Shown here one piece after another: positions 1-9,168 of a DNA stretch of 55,979 nucleotides (position 1 is the stretch's first letter; each line of letters starts with the position of its first letter). A program made the position numbers and the translations under genes. Location of the stretch: assembly GCA_021787845.1 (NCBI GenBank), contig JAJYLH010000039.1:1-55979 (forward strand), read 5' to 3'. This DNA comes from Myxococcales bacterium (GTDB taxonomy: Bacteria > Myxococcota > Myxococcia > Myxococcales > JAJYLH01). The notes under the pieces are model-generated. The model was given only the letters and a program-made list of their open reading frames with translations, did no database searches and had not been told where the DNA came from.

Positions 1-230
1 CTGTTCCCGGCCGTTCGCACCCTGTTCCCGGCCGTTCGCACCCTGTTCCCGGCCGTTCGCACCCTGTTCCCGGCCGTTCGCACCCTGTTCCCGGCCGTTG
101 GCACCCTGTTCCCGACCATTCGCACCCGTTCCCGACCGTTCGCACCCTGTTCCCGGCCGTTCGCACCCTGTTCCCGGCCGTTCGCACCCTGTTCCCGACC
201 GTTCGCACCCTGTTCCCGACCGTTCGCACC
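1..230. repeat. 21-bp tandem repeat, about 11 copies
   Basis: A 21-bp unit reading CTGTTCCCGGCCGTTCGCAC plus one C is repeated head to tail from the first base of the window to about position 230. Later copies drift: GGCC becomes GACC, and one copy has TTGGC. The array runs off the left edge, so its full length is unknown. The unit is a multiple of three, so frames stay open through it, but nothing suggests translation. Confidence 0.9.
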
Positions 231-665
231 TCGTCGGCCTCGGCTCGCGCCCGGTGGAAGGCGATTCGCACTTGCCGCTAAGCGCATCCACCCGGCCCGA
301 GCCGCGTCCGCTCGGTGCGGCGAACGAGCTGGGCGGAGAGCCGCGACCTCCCCCGGCCCGGGTGGTCTTCGGCATCAAGGGATCCCGACCGAGCTTGCCC
401 GGCTGGTGAAGGCGCGAGACGAAGGGCAGAAGATCCATACGATGATCGACCGTTTCCTCCTCGGCTGGTCGGCGACGACAGCGCCCTGCCCCCACTCTTG
501 GACAGAACCGATACCCTCCCTCGCCCGGGAGCGATGCCGACCACGACCGCCAGCGACTCCCACCGCGACGCCACCGAGGACTGATCGCACACCCGGGCCG
601 CTTGGGCTTCTCACGTGTCGTGCCGTGTCCGAGGGGTGTGCTACAAGGCCGGTGGTGTTTTCGAG
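231..665. other. Intergenic, no convincing gene
   Basis: No ORF here has a convincing start, ribosome site and protein-like composition together. One stretch at about 379-480 on the plus strand reads like coding sequence (GIPTELARLVKARDEGQKI, then HTMIDRFLLG) but has no proper start and soon turns into Pro/Arg-rich low-complexity sequence. It may be the remnant of a decayed gene. Confidence 0.4.
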
Positions 666-3600
666 ATGCCCATGACCCCGGCCCAACTACTCGCTTTCTT
701 GCGTGCCTACGCGGGCGAGGTTCGGCGCATTCGGGCCGACCCGGCCCATCATCCGGAGACGTCGCTCTACCCGCTGCTCCAGACGTTGCTCGAGTCGGTA
801 CTCGCGGCGTTTCGGCAGCACGTCGAGATTCGTTCGCAGCGCCGCGCCGAGGCGCGTAGCGTGCCCGATTTCACGCTGCTCGATCGGCAACATCCCTTCG
901 GGTGGATCGAGGCGAAGGCGCCCGACCATCGCGTCGATGAGCGCCGCCGTTTTCACGACCAGGAGCTCGTGCAGTTCGACCGCTACGCCAAGCTGCCCTC
1001 GGTCGTCTACACGAACTTCCATGAGGCGACGCTCTTCGTCGAGGGGCAGCCGGTCGAGTCGGCGCAGCTCGTCGCCGAATCGGATCTCGCTCCCGAGGGA
1101 CGCGGGTTCGCGGGTCCGAGCGACATCGGGCAGACGCTCCGGTTCTTCGAGCGCGTCGCGTCCTTCGAGCCCCCGCCGATGACGCGACCGGCCGAGGTCG
1201 CGGCCGCGCTCGCCCGACGTGCTCGCCTCGTGCGCGAGGTCGTCACCGAGGTCGTGCGCGAGCAAGCCGAGAATCCGCTGCAAGAGCTCTTCCGCGAGTT
1301 CGAGGACATCCTCTTCAAGTCGCTCTCCGCCGAGCAGTTCGCCGACGCCTACGCGCAGACGCTGACGTACGGGCTCCTGCTCGCGCACGTCTCCCTCGAC
1401 TTCGCTCGGGATGACCGGGCAGGCGTCGGGCTCTCTCTCGATAGCGCACCGAGATTGCTGGAAGACCATCACCGGTTGCTCTCCGGGGCGCTACGCCTGC
1501 TCGGGCAACCAGAACCGGTGCGACTCATCGGCTGGAGCGTCGAGGCGCTCATCGAGACGGTGCGGCGAGTCGATGTCGTCGTCCTCTCCGGCGAGCACGC
1601 GGATGAAGCGCTCCTCTATTTCTACGAACAGTTCCTGGCGGCCTACGACCCGGTGCTGCGCCGGAAGGTCGGTGTCTACTTCACGCCGCCGGAGGTGGTC
1701 GCGTTCCAGGTGCGCGCCTGCGAGGAGCTGCTCGCTTCCGAGCTGGGCATCGACACCGGGTTCGCGTCGGATGGCGTGAATGTCCTCGACCCGGCGACGG
1801 GGACCGGCACCTATCTGCTCGGCATCGTTCGGGAGGTCGCGCGACGCGCACGCGAGGAGCAGGGGCAGGCGGCGGTCCGCGGCGCGCTCGAGTCGCTTGT
1901 GCGGCGCATCTTCGCGTTCGAGCTTCTCGTCGGCCCCTACTCGGTCGCGCGCTGGCGGCTCGGAACGATGTTTCGAAGCGCCGGCGTGACCGCGAGCCCG
2001 CAGGTCGTGCTGACCGACACGCTCGTCCCCGCGACGATGGCCCGCGAAGTGACGCCGCAATTCGGCTTCCTCTCGCGAGCACTCAGCGAGGAGCGGCAAC
2101 GCGCCGACCACCTGAAGCAGGCCGAGTCCATCATGGTGATCCTCGGCAATCCGCCCTACGGCCGCACCAGGCTGAATGCCGACGACGAGCCGGGCGAGGA
2201 GGCCGGCCGCTGGGACTGGATTTGGCGCAAGGTCGACGACTTCCGGCGCGGGCTCCCGCAGGAAGAGCGGGTGAACATCCGCAACCTCGCCGACCGGTAC
2301 GTTCTCTTCTGGCGCTGGGGCTTCTGGAAGCTGCTCGACCCGGAGGCGAGCGGGCCGGGCCGCGGCATCGTCACCTTCATCACGAACCGCAGCTACCTCT
2401 CGGGCGGCGCATTCTCGGAGATGCGTCGGTTCATGCGCGAGAGCTTCGACCGTGTCGACATCGTCGACCTCGGGGGAGACCAGCGGGCCGGCCGCCGGGA
2501 CGATGCGCCCGAGGATCAGAACGTCTTCGAAATCGAGACTGGTGTCGCCATCGCGGTCTGCGTGCGTAAGAGCGAGCGACGTCCCCGCGGGTGCGATGTC
2601 CACTACCGGAGGCTGTGGGGCACGCGAAGCGAGAAGCTCTCTGCGCTCGGCGCGGTTCGCCTCCGACGCGGCTTCGAGCGACCGCCAAGAACCGGTGGCG
2701 ACTCGTTCATCCCGCGGACCGACTCGGCGTTCCACGACTGGCTGCCGCTGCCGGAGCTGTTCGCGCATGGGTTCAGCGGCGTCCAGACCAAGCGCGACAA
2801 GCTGGTTGTCGACGTGCGCCGGGAAGGACTTCATCGGAAGCTGGGGACGCTCGCCCGGATGAATGCGGAGGAGGCGAAGGAGACCTTTCACGAGACTCGC
2901 GACCGGAAGCTGCCGCCGCTGGCAGGCTTTCGGTTTGACGACGATGCCGTCTGCGCCTACGCCTATCGACCGCTGGACCGTCGCGTCATCTATTTGGACG
3001 ACAGGTTCGTCGAATACTCTCGCTCGGCGCTGCGCACGCTTTGGGGCCGAGACAACATCGCGCTGGTGACGTTCCCGCGAAAGCACGGGACGGGGCCGGT
3101 GGCTGTCGTGCACGCCAACTTGCCGGATATCAACTCTTTCAGCTCCGCGCAGGGCACGAGCCGCGTCTTCCCCCTCTGGGACGACGGCATCAAGCTCAGC
3201 CGCCGGCGAGTCTCCAACTTTCGGCCCGAGCGGCTCGATGCGCTACGCGATGCCTACGGCGAGTCCGACCCGAAGGACTTGTTCTACTACCTCTATGGCG
3301 TGCTCCAAGCACCAAGCTACACGAGCCGGTTCAGCGAGGAGCTCCAGCAAAGCTTTCCGCGAGTGCCGTTCCCTCAGGAGCGGACGCTCTACGAGGCCAT
3401 CGCGGCGTTCGGACAAGTGCTGGTCGATCTGCACACGTTCGCGCGGACTCTCCGTCGGGGCGAAGACCCCTGCCGGCTCGATGGCGAGAGCGCGGCGATC
3501 GATCGTGTCCAGTTCGTGCCCGAGGCGGGGCAGGTCGTCCTCGGCGAGGGGCTCGTGCTCACGAACGTGACGCAGCCAATATGGGGTTTCCAGGTGAGCG

Positions 3601-3782
3601 GCTATCCAGTGCTGCGGCGATGGCTCGAGGCGCGGATCGGCCTCGACCTCACGGCCGACGAGATCAACGAGCTTCGAAACGTCGTCCACGCCCTGCGCCG
3701 CACGGTCGAGCTGGGGCCGAGCCTCGATGCGCGTCTCGACGAGCTCGTCCGCGCGCCGCTGCTAGACCTGCAACTTGGTTGA
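666..3782 (+). CDS. Restriction endonuclease-methyltransferase fusion (type IIG / ISP-like)
   Basis: This 1038-residue protein joins a nuclease and an adenine-N6 DNA methyltransferase. The N-terminus carries a PD-(D/E)XK-type pattern (PDFTLLD near residue 65, IEAKA near 80). The methyltransferase core has motif I DPATGTGTYLLG near 375 and motif IV NPPYG near 495. The last 400 residues are probably target recognition. No helicase domain is visible, so it is shorter than classical type ISP enzymes (about 1500 residues) and closer to type IIG organisation. The ATG at 666 or 672 is preferred because the frame upstream is not protein-like; the ribosome site is weak. One polypeptide could both cut and protect DNA. 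No partner subunit is adjacent. Confidence 0.85.
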   Translation: MPMTPAQLLAFLRAYAGEVRRIRADPAHHPETSLYPLLQTLLESVLAAFRQHVEIRSQRRAEARSVPDFTLLDRQHPFGWIEAKAPDHRVDERRRFHDQELVQFDRYAKLPSVVYTNFHEATLFVEGQPVESAQLVAESDLAPEGRGFAGPSDIGQTLRFFERVASFEPPPMTRPAEVAAALARRARLVREVVTEVVREQAENPLQELFREFEDILFKSLSAEQFADAYAQTLTYGLLLAHVSLDFARDDRAGVGLSLDSAPRLLEDHHRLLSGALRLLGQPEPVRLIGWSVEALIETVRRVDVVVLSGEHADEALLYFYEQFLAAYDPVLRRKVGVYFTPPEVVAFQVRACEELLASELGIDTGFASDGVNVLDPATGTGTYLLGIVREVARRAREEQGQAAVRGALESLVRRIFAFELLVGPYSVARWRLGTMFRSAGVTASPQVVLTDTLVPATMAREVTPQFGFLSRALSEERQRADHLKQAESIMVILGNPPYGRTRLNADDEPGEEAGRWDWIWRKVDDFRRGLPQEERVNIRNLADRYVLFWRWGFWKLLDPEASGPGRGIVTFITNRSYLSGGAFSEMRRFMRESFDRVDIVDLGGDQRAGRRDDAPEDQNVFEIETGVAIAVCVRKSERRPRGCDVHYRRLWGTRSEKLSALGAVRLRRGFERPPRTGGDSFIPRTDSAFHDWLPLPELFAHGFSGVQTKRDKLVVDVRREGLHRKLGTLARMNAEEAKETFHETRDRKLPPLAGFRFDDDAVCAYAYRPLDRRVIYLDDRFVEYSRSALRTLWGRDNIALVTFPRKHGTGPVAVVHANLPDINSFSSAQGTSRVFPLWDDGIKLSRRRVSNFRPERLDALRDAYGESDPKDLFYYLYGVLQAPSYTSRFSEELQQSFPRVPFPQERTLYEAIAAFGQVLVDLHTFARTLRRGEDPCRLDGESAAIDRVQFVPEAGQVVLGEGLVLTNVTQPIWGFQVSGYPVLRRWLEARIGLDLTADEINELRNVVHALRRTVELGPSLDARLDELVRAPLLDLQLG

Positions 3783-3824
3783 GAACATAAGCACCGACGA
3801 AGTCGCCAAGGAGGAAGTATCTCG

Positions 3825-4115
3825 ATGAGCCGCCAGCGTGATCCAGGGGTGCCGCCGGCCAACAAGGCGGAGTACTTCAAGCACATTAGATACGAAGTCG
3901 AGATGCTCGCCGCGGTCGCCGAGTTGTTGGCGAGCGGTCTTCCTCAGCAAATGCTTTCGACCGCATTAGGGAAGAACATCCGGGCAGCGCTGCCGCCCTC
4001 CGGCAACGTCCGCATCGTCGCCATCACCGACAAGCAGTTCGGGAAGATGCACGTCGTCGAGGGACAAAAGCGCGTCGATGCCGAGGAGCCGCCCGAACAG
4101 ATCGTGCTTTTGTGA
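3825..4115 (+). CDS. Small hypothetical protein
   Basis: A 96-residue protein with a strong ribosome site (AAGGAGG, about 10 nt before the ATG). Composition is that of a real soluble protein (for example YFKHIRYEVEMLAAVAELL, then FGKMHVVEGQKRVD). There is no signal peptide, membrane segment or motif I recognise. It starts 42 bp after the restriction-methyltransferase and ends about 50 bp before the CRISPR-like array, so it may be co-transcribed with the enzyme. A regulatory or accessory role in that locus is possible but only positional. Confidence 0.7.
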   Translation: MSRQRDPGVPPANKAEYFKHIRYEVEMLAAVAELLASGLPQQMLSTALGKNIRAALPPSGNVRIVAITDKQFGKMHVVEGQKRVDAEEPPEQIVLL

Positions 4116-4134
4116 GCGCCCGAGGTGCCCGACC

Positions 4135-4153
4135 CCCCCGGAACTTCCGGGGG
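4135..4153. terminator. GC-rich hairpin, terminator-like
   Basis: The sequence CCCCCGGAACTTCCGGGGG is a perfect inverted repeat around a central C; as RNA it would form a 7-bp all-GC stem with an AACTT loop. It lies 20 bp after the stop of the 96-residue gene and 14 bp before the first repeat of the array. No T-tract follows, so it is not a classical intrinsic terminator; it could also mark the edge of the array. Confidence 0.45.
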
Positions 4154-4166
4154 ATTCGGGCCAGGT

Positions 4167-4465
4167 AGTGTACCTGAGCGTCGACCTCCTGCGGGATGCA
4201 GCTACACAAGCATCTCGCCTGCGGCCTCGAGTAGTGTACCTGAGCGTCGACCTCCTGCGGGATGCAGCCCAGGGCTCGCCGCAATGAACGGGCGGCTCAG
4301 TGTACCTGAGCGTCGACCTCCTGCGGGATGCAGCCCTACACCGGCGACCGCCTTCCCGGAACGAGTGTACCTGAGCGTCGACCTCCTGCGGGATGCAGCC
4401 GCCGGCCGCCGCTGTCGCGTGGGTCGGCGAGTGTACCTGAGCGTCGACCTCCTGCGGGATGCAGC
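4167..4465. CRISPR. Orphan CRISPR-like array, 5 repeats and 4 spacers
   Basis: Five copies of an identical 36-nt repeat (begins AGTGTACCTG, ends GGGATGCAGC) lie at 4167-4202, 4233-4268, 4299-4334, 4364-4399 and 4430-4465. The four spacers between them are 30, 30, 29 and 30 nt and unrelated to each other. The repeat contains GTCGAC and a short hairpin CTGC-GGGAT-GCAG. Perfect repeats with unique spacers of near-constant size are the hallmark of CRISPR; 36/30 geometry is common in type II and also seen in types V, VI and III. No cas gene is in the window, so transcription direction and type cannot be fixed. No degenerate end repeat is visible. Confidence 0.8.
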
Positions 4466-4739
4466 CCGGATTTCATAGACCCGCCTTTGAAGCCCTATGG
4501 CAGGAGTGGTGCCAACGCCTCCCGTCAGGCCGCGAGGGCATCGCGACAACACTTTGCCAGACACGGAGCGAGCGGCTCAAGTAGAGGAACTTGCCCTCGA
4601 TCGAGTCGTCGTCGGTGGAGTCCCCCGCTCCGCGGGTCAAGGTTCGCATCCTGGTCGGATGAGCACCCGTCAGCAAGATCAGGTATAGAGGACGCGCGCC
4701 GCTCGCGGTCGTCGCGGGCGCCGCCGGAGCCTCGAGCTG
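4466..4739. other. Intergenic between array and helicase gene
   Basis: No clear plus-strand gene. On the minus strand a 58-codon frame (4649 down to 4473) begins with GC3-rich, coding-like codons (MRTLTRGAGDSTDDDSIEGK) but loses that character towards the array. It may be a gene truncated when the array region was acquired. No leader-like AT-rich tract was seen. Confidence 0.3.
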
Positions 4740-7172
<2,433 letters not shown>

Positions 7173-7208
7173 AGACAGCCGGCATGGTTCTGGGTTAGGC
7201 TTCCCACG

Positions 7209-7904
7209 ATGTCGCCGCGTCCGACCGAGCGAGCGCCCATCGATGTTGTCCGCGCCGAGCGCGAAGACCAGGCGCTTCGCCACGAGATCGCGGGCCGACC
7301 CTTGTTCGACGCGCTCGCGCGCTACCACGCCCGGATGGACGCGCTGGTCGCCGAGGCGCTCGGGGGAGCCGCCATCGCCTGCGGTCCGGGCTGCGCGACG
7401 TGTTGCCATCAGCCGCTCCTCGTGAGCTTCCTGGAGCTCGCGGCGATCTTCTTTTCCGACGAGCGTCGCTTCGGCTCCCCCGAGTTCCGACGGGCGCTGA
7501 GCCAATCGAATCGCGCGCTGGCACGATGGAAGAAGGAGGCGGGCGCCGAAGGCGCGGTAGGCGTCGCGCGCCGTCAGTTCGCGTCTCGCGCGCCCTGCGT
7601 CTTGCTTGGCGAAGGCGGACGCTGCACGGCTTACGCCGTCCGGCCCTTTCTTTGTCGCAACGCGGTCGCCGACGCCGTCTGCACCTTTGCGAGCCTCGGC
7701 TCCTACGGCTTTGGCGATCTCGCGGCCCTCGCGCGACGCCTGCGGCAACGGCTCGTCGAAACCTACGCCCTGGAACGGTTCGATCGCCCACCCGTGCGCG
7801 TCGCGACCGCGGTCTTCCACTTGCCCGAAGGGCTCGCCTGGTTCGCCGACCACGCGCCGCGCGGCGAGCTGCGGGCGACCTTTGCTCGCCCGGATGCCCC
7901 CTGA
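7209..7904 (+). CDS. YkgJ-type cysteine-cluster protein
   Basis: A 231-residue soluble protein with the cysteine arrangement of the YkgJ family, thought to bind zinc or an iron-sulfur cluster: CGPGCATCCHQP near residue 60, then APCVLLGEGGRCTAYAVRP and a final FLCR. The cysteines and the short linkers match the family; biochemical function is unknown. It starts 36 bp after the helicase gene with a TTAGGCT box between, so it may have its own promoter. An additional Cys (DAVCTF) follows the cluster. Confidence 0.85.
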   Translation: MSPRPTERAPIDVVRAEREDQALRHEIAGRPLFDALARYHARMDALVAEALGGAAIACGPGCATCCHQPLLVSFLELAAIFFSDERRFGSPEFRRALSQSNRALARWKKEAGAEGAVGVARRQFASRAPCVLLGEGGRCTAYAVRPFLCRNAVADAVCTFASLGSYGFGDLAALARRLRQRLVETYALERFDRPPVRVATAVFHLPEGLAWFADHAPRGELRATFARPDAP

Positions 7905-7947
7905 AAGCGCTGCGTTTCCACCGTTCCTATGCGGTCGACGCACTTGC

Positions 7948-8202
7948 CAGAATGGGAGCCGGACACGTCGGTCTCCGGGTTCATTTTCGGCCGCGGGCTG
8001 TTTCGAATGGGAATCGAAATTGGAGTTGGAGCCGGACACGCCAGTGTTCGGGTGCAGGCAGGGACTTCAAGAACCGTAGAGCGGGGGCTTGCCCCCCGCC
8101 GCACGCTGACGCCGCCCCCAACGGCGGGGGACAAGCCCCCGCCCTACAATCCTCATTCGCGTTGCCGTGCTTGCACCCGGACACTGACGCGTCCGGCTCC
8201 AA
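7948..8202. mobile_element. Palindromic MITE-like element (copy 1)
   Basis: A 177-bp element (8026-8202) is bounded by inverted repeats of about 31 bp: the left arm begins TTGGAGCCGGACAC, the right arm ends GTCCGGCTCCAA. Nested inside is a second inverted pair, GCGGGGGCTTGCCCCCCGCC against GGCGGGGGACAAGCCCCCGC. A second copy in the opposite orientation lies at 55387-55561, and similarity extends left to about 8002. A half copy (GGGAGCCGGACACGTC) sits at about 7950-7970. No transposase is encoded, so any movement needs one supplied from elsewhere. Confidence 0.8.
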
Positions 8203-8250
8203 TTCTGGCAGAGGCCCAACGGATCACGAAGGCCCGACCTGCTCCGCGCT

Positions 8251-8472
8251 ATTAATCGTTGCGCAAGTAGCTGCACCGCAGATGGGACTCAGTAGTGCCG
8301 GCCCTCTGGCCCCGCGTGACGGCGATGTCGCTGGGTGCCGGGCCGGAGGGCCGGCACTACTGGTATTAATCGTTGCGAAAGTATCTGCGCCTCGCATCAT
8401 CAGTCGTGGCACGGGCGTCCCCGCCCGTGTAGCCTTCGTTGTGGTTTTCACAGGCGAGGACGCCTGTGCCAC
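8251..8472. repeat. Composite palindromic repeat cluster
   Basis: Two direct copies of an ATTAATCGTTGCGAAAGTA-like end (8251-8269 with one change, and 8365-8383) flank a perfect 22-bp inverted pair (8291-8312 and 8340-8361, arm starting AGTAGTGCCGGCCC). Next to it, 8406-8472 carries the family GGCACGGGCGTCCCCGCCCGTG with its inverted partner, also found at 52818-52908 and 55644-55717. The 8365-8472 block matches 55603-55719 in the same orientation. It appears non-coding. Confidence 0.75.
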
Positions 8473-8487
8473 GGACGGGCACGGTTC

Positions 8488-9168
8488 CTACTTCTTCGTG
8501 TGCTTCGCGCGGTGGTGTCCTGGCTTCTCGCGAGGCGTCTCGACTCCGGTGACCTCCCCGGTCTTCGGATCGAGCTGCAGGCGAACGTGGGCATGCCTGC
8601 GCAGCGCGCTCGCCGGCACCGACGCCGCGACGGGCAGAATCACCTCGAGCCGATGGCGCTTCGCCGAGTAGGACAGAACGTAGGCGGAGTAGGCGCCGGT
8701 CGCTTCGCTCTTCGGCTTCTTCGCGGATGCGCGCTCGCCCTTGGCGGGCTCGCTCGTGGCTTTCGACGGCGCCGCGGGGGCCTTCTTGGCTGGACTGGCC
8801 GCGGCGTTCGGTCGCTTTGGACCGAGGTCGCGAACGGTGCCGACGAGCGCCGAGATCTCTGCATCCGACAACCGGCCGCCGAAGCCGCTCATCATCTGAT
8901 GGACGCCGTCCTTCGTCCGGTGCACGCCGTCGACGATGGTCTGACGAATCTCCGCGTCGGACACGCTCTTCTGCCAGGCGGCGCTCGTCAGGTCCGCGAT
9001 CTTCATGTGACGCCCCATCGACGTGTCGGCCTTGCCGTCGGCGCCATGGCACATCGCGCACTTGGCCTTCCACGTCGCCTGGGCGCTCGCGCGGGCCCGG
9101 AAGGGGACGAACGACAGCGCGCCGACGACCAGAACGATTCCCAGATTTCGCGCCGAGCTCGGGACCAT
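8488..9168 (-). CDS. Secreted c-type cytochrome
   Basis: A 226-residue exported monohaem cytochrome c. After a hydrophobic signal segment (residues 8-29) comes the haem site CAMCH at 37-41, and the likely distal ligand is a Met in MMSGFGGRLSDAEI. The last third is an Ala/Lys/Pro-rich linker followed by a small C-terminal domain (AYVLSYSAKRHRLEVILPVA) I do not recognise. The ATG at 9168 is chosen because it begins the signal peptide and has AGAGGAG just upstream; the frame stays open further but is not protein-like there. It probably carries electrons in the periplasm. No oxidase or reductase partner is adjacent. Confidence 0.85.
   Translation of the reverse strand: MVPSSARNLGIVLVVGALSFVPFRARASAQATWKAKCAMCHGADGKADTSMGRHMKIADLTSAAWQKSVSDAEIRQTIVDGVHRTKDGVHQMMSGFGGRLSDAEISALVGTVRDLGPKRPNAAASPAKKAPAAPSKATSEPAKGERASAKKPKSEATGAYSAYVLSYSAKRHRLEVILPVAASVPASALRRHAHVRLQLDPKTGEVTGVETPREKPGHHRAKHTKK

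Follow-up and report, generated by a model that had tools for sequence, protein, structure and literature searches.

A CRISPR array with no complete cas gene near it raises the question of which kind of system it belonged to and whether any effector in the same genome could still use it. Such an array lies on contig JAJYLH010000039.1 of a Myxococcales bacterium, the whole 55,979 nucleotides of which constitute the window analysed here, with 4.1 kb of sequence to its left and 50 kb to its right. As described below, the array adjoins a cas2 gene of which only the broken 3' part is left, and is for this reason read as the remnant of an ordinary type II locus.

The array and the partial cas2 gene

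The array occupies positions 4167–4465 and comprises five identical 36-nt repeats (AGTGTACCTGAGCGTCGACCTCCTGCGGGATGCAGC), exact copies of which start at 4167, 4233, 4299, 4364 and 4430, with four spacers of 30, 30, 29 and 30 nt, each different from the others. The number and length of repeats and spacers, and the limits of the array, are exactly as given in the preliminary description. Direct repeats without variation, with unique spacers of almost uniform length between them, are those of a CRISPR array, and five exact 36-mers at a period of 65–66 nt cannot be a product of chance. The repeat folds no better than its own shuffles. A structured RNA was considered as the identity of the array and was rejected, as an Rfam scan gave no match there.

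A 96-residue open reading frame is found at 3825–4115 on the plus strand, the strand on which the repeats are listed above. It has AAGGAGG ahead of its ATG and ends 51 nt upstream of the first repeat (gap 4116–4166). The PADLOC Cas2_II model matches this frame with E = 8e-12, but the match is confined to residues 47–96; that of the NCBIfam cas2 model (TIGR01573) is confined to residues 44–88 and falls under the curated cut-off, and a Pfam search of the frame gave no match. A partial cas2 of this kind would thus escape annotation by whole-gene models. Residues 52–96 (about 3978–4112) correspond to the C-terminal half of type II Cas2, with 38–44% identity to the Cas2 proteins of cas9-cas1-cas2-array loci and z = 14–22 above shuffles when compared with six type II Cas2 proteins. 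In the same test residues 1–51 (about 3825–3977) have z of about 0 and show no similarity to Cas2, which rules out the candidate reading of the frame as a divergent but complete Cas2. One gapped tblastn alignment, with the Pigmentibacter Cas2, does extend into the N-terminal half of the frame, but this part carries no signal in the shuffle test.

With whole Cas2 proteins as tblastn queries, no frame of the window yielded a convincing N-terminal half. The missing half holds the conserved first strand, MW..V.FDLP in relatives, which contains a conserved aspartate. Judged by its sequence, the gene at 3825–4115 is a genuine cas2 in its C-terminal half and is broken, its N-terminal half being missing, since residues 1–51 lack Cas2 similarity. 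The array had been described as lacking cas genes, from a look to its right; a partial type II cas2 lies 51 nt to its left. The term orphan remains apt to the extent that no complete cas gene is near, but not beyond it, as the C-terminal half of Cas2 adjoins the array at the place usual for type II systems.

The first 51 residues of the frame have no Pfam or plasmid match and no relative in the genome contigs or viral contigs. Immediately upstream, across the presumed junction and outside the CRISPR locus, a type ISP/IIG-like restriction-modification enzyme of 1055 residues is encoded at 615–3782 on the plus strand. A genome of the same order carries a 54% identical homologue, behind which residues 1–51 were not found. 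We note that this homologue appears to be split over two frames. The contig itself starts within a tandem array of an approximately 21-nt unit (CCTGTTCCCGGCCGTTCGCAC; window positions 1–250), which is probably the reason that the assembly stops there.

Comparison with type II loci

A tblastn search of plasmids with the 3825–4115 frame gave four records, aligned over residues 45–96 or 50–96 only. Three of the four are annotated, and in these the match lies on Cas2 and the genes are in the order cas9-cas1-cas2; an array lies directly behind cas2 in all four, including that from Tistrella. The distance from the cas2 stop codon to the first repeat, computed for the plasmids from the array coordinates, is 51, 74, 101 and 58 nt, compared with 51 nt in the window, a value shared with the Pigmentibacter locus. 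The repeat length is 36 nt in each of the four loci, and the period is close to 66 nt in three of them. Outside its own genome, relatives of the frame occur in only two of 195 genomes of the phylum; these two are also the only ones with Cas9, and both have cas9-cas1-cas2 in this order.

The locus most resembles the type II-C plasmid loci of Azospirillum thermophilum and Pigmentibacter ruber, with which it shares the C-terminal half of Cas2 (38–44% identity), the placement of the array behind cas2, a 36-nt repeat without structure and spacers of about 30 nt. It differs from type II-C loci in having no cas9, no cas1, no N-terminal half of Cas2 and no tracrRNA that could be found, and its repeat sequence differs from those of the two plasmids. 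Type II-C arrays are transcribed against the cas operon (PMC3936727, PMC6737040), so that the crRNA strand of the array is probably the minus strand, opposite to cas2. In this sense the repeat reads GCTGCATCCCGCAGGAGGTCGACGCTCAGGTACACT, beginning GCTGC and ending TACACT; in the same sense the Azospirillum repeat runs from GTTGC to TACAAT, and that of Pigmentibacter begins GCTGA. Both of these repeats also fold no better than shuffles.

Orphan arrays, which are on average shorter than others, are seen as what remains of systems since lost (discussed in PMC6737040, PMC9071438). The array resembles these in being short and having no functional cas genes nearby, but differs from them in that a partial cas2 still reveals the type of the system that was lost.

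Cas genes and repeat copies elsewhere

The assembly of this genome (6.24 Mb, 153 contigs, 98.17% complete) contains no Cas9 according to either TIGR01865 or the RuvC-III model PF18541, and Cas9 proteins of other loci gave no convincing tblastn match in the window. Its sole Cas1 and sole other Cas2 both lie on contig C57 in a type I-G (formerly I-U) operon, which encodes Cas3g, Cas8g, Cas5/6g and a Cas4-Cas1 fusion and is accompanied by a 13-copy array (L007, 600–10196); the single Cas1 of the genome is thus of type I-G, and a type II cas1 is absent. The window repeat has no second site in the assembly at up to three mismatches, either beside cas genes, where it had been suggested to look for it, or elsewhere. 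It is absent from the other genomes of a 193-genome set of relatives and has no match in viral contigs, a loosened pattern gave no hit in genome contigs, and in none of these sets was it found beside a cas9. Spacer targets, also proposed earlier as a check, were not evident: comparison with phage, plasmid and self sequences gave chance-level pieces only, and viral contigs contained no exact copy of the 22 nt at the end of each spacer that is presumed to be the seed. Local alignment over window positions 1–9000 gave no anti-repeat above shuffles, and a genome search allowing up to three mismatches over 24 nt, which bulged anti-repeats could escape, also gave none; no tracrRNA was recognized in either search.

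With no Cas9, type II Cas1 or anti-repeat, and only a type I-G set, the assembly holds no component expected to process or use the window array. The preliminary description had allowed that a remote Cas set might serve it, and the complete type I-G set with its 13-repeat array is the only candidate present. The two arrays share a genome and a repeat length of 36 nt, but the type I-G repeat is unrelated in sequence and forms a stable 7-bp hairpin, whereas the window repeat has no fold that beats its shuffles; the type I-G locus has its own Cas4-Cas1 fusion and Cas2, and the cas2 remnant adjoining the window array is of type II. Use of the array in trans by this system is therefore most improbable. 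That a Cas9 and tracrRNA encoded elsewhere, and absent from the draft, serve the array in trans is somewhat easier to entertain but still unlikely: the identity of all of the repeats and the draft state of the assembly would suit it, but Cas9 is missing by two models, there is no second Cas1 and neither a second array nor an anti-repeat was found at up to three mismatches. An unrecognised effector had also been put forward. No recognised effector was found for the array and its repeat is not found elsewhere, but the type II Cas2 tail, its spacing and the length of the repeat are those of a known type, so that no such effector is needed and we give this idea almost no weight.

Origin of the array

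In our opinion the array is, with a probability of about 86%, the terminal 3' portion of a type II locus (II-C-like, cas9-cas1-cas2-array) left behind by a deletion or replacement. A full locus would once have stood at this site; the event would have taken cas9 and cas1 along with the N-terminal half of cas2, so that the break in the middle of cas2 came to be fused, in the same reading frame, with unrelated sequence after the restriction-modification gene. Adaptation would no longer be possible, as Cas1 and an intact Cas2 are missing, nor would interference, as Cas9 and tracrRNA are missing too, and on this gene content the array is probably inert. We infer subtype II-C with the proviso that a csn2 or cas4 gene may once have been present. 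The five identical repeats, together with an open chimeric frame that has a good ribosome-binding site, indicate that any decay is young at most. The loss would have been recent enough for the repeats to stay identical; the earlier argument from repeat identity against long decay thus holds in that the loss is not ancient, but does not imply activity. Other points that weigh against a remnant are that cas9 may sit in a gap of an assembly that is 98% complete in 153 contigs, that the repeat was beside cas9 in no set searched and that no donor of residues 1–51 was identified.

The main technical doubt is that the cas2 junction may be an assembly chimera, the contig having been misjoined in the middle of cas2 and the organism possessing an intact type II locus. 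The junction falls within a gene and the 21-nt tandem repeat at the left end of the contig is only 3.6 kb off, but the two parts are fused in frame and a ribosome-binding site precedes them, and no other contig carries a type II cas9 or cas1; we judge a misjoin to be improbable. It is less likely still that the chimeric 96-residue protein is expressed and under selection, with the array beside it kept for a non-immune role.

Read as a remnant, the array is an ordinary one of a Cas9-type system, and orphan arrays as remnants are already a known kind (PMC6737040, PMC9071438). It removes one candidate for an unknown effector and provides a clear case of an 'orphan' array typed by a partial cas gene, which bears on how orphan arrays are counted and not on new biology.

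To the right of the array, window positions 7945–8391 hold an intergenic cluster of long imperfect inverted repeats with arms of 26–41 nt, in which two 28-nt direct copies (TATTAATCGTTGCG...) lie among hairpins resembling repeat elements.
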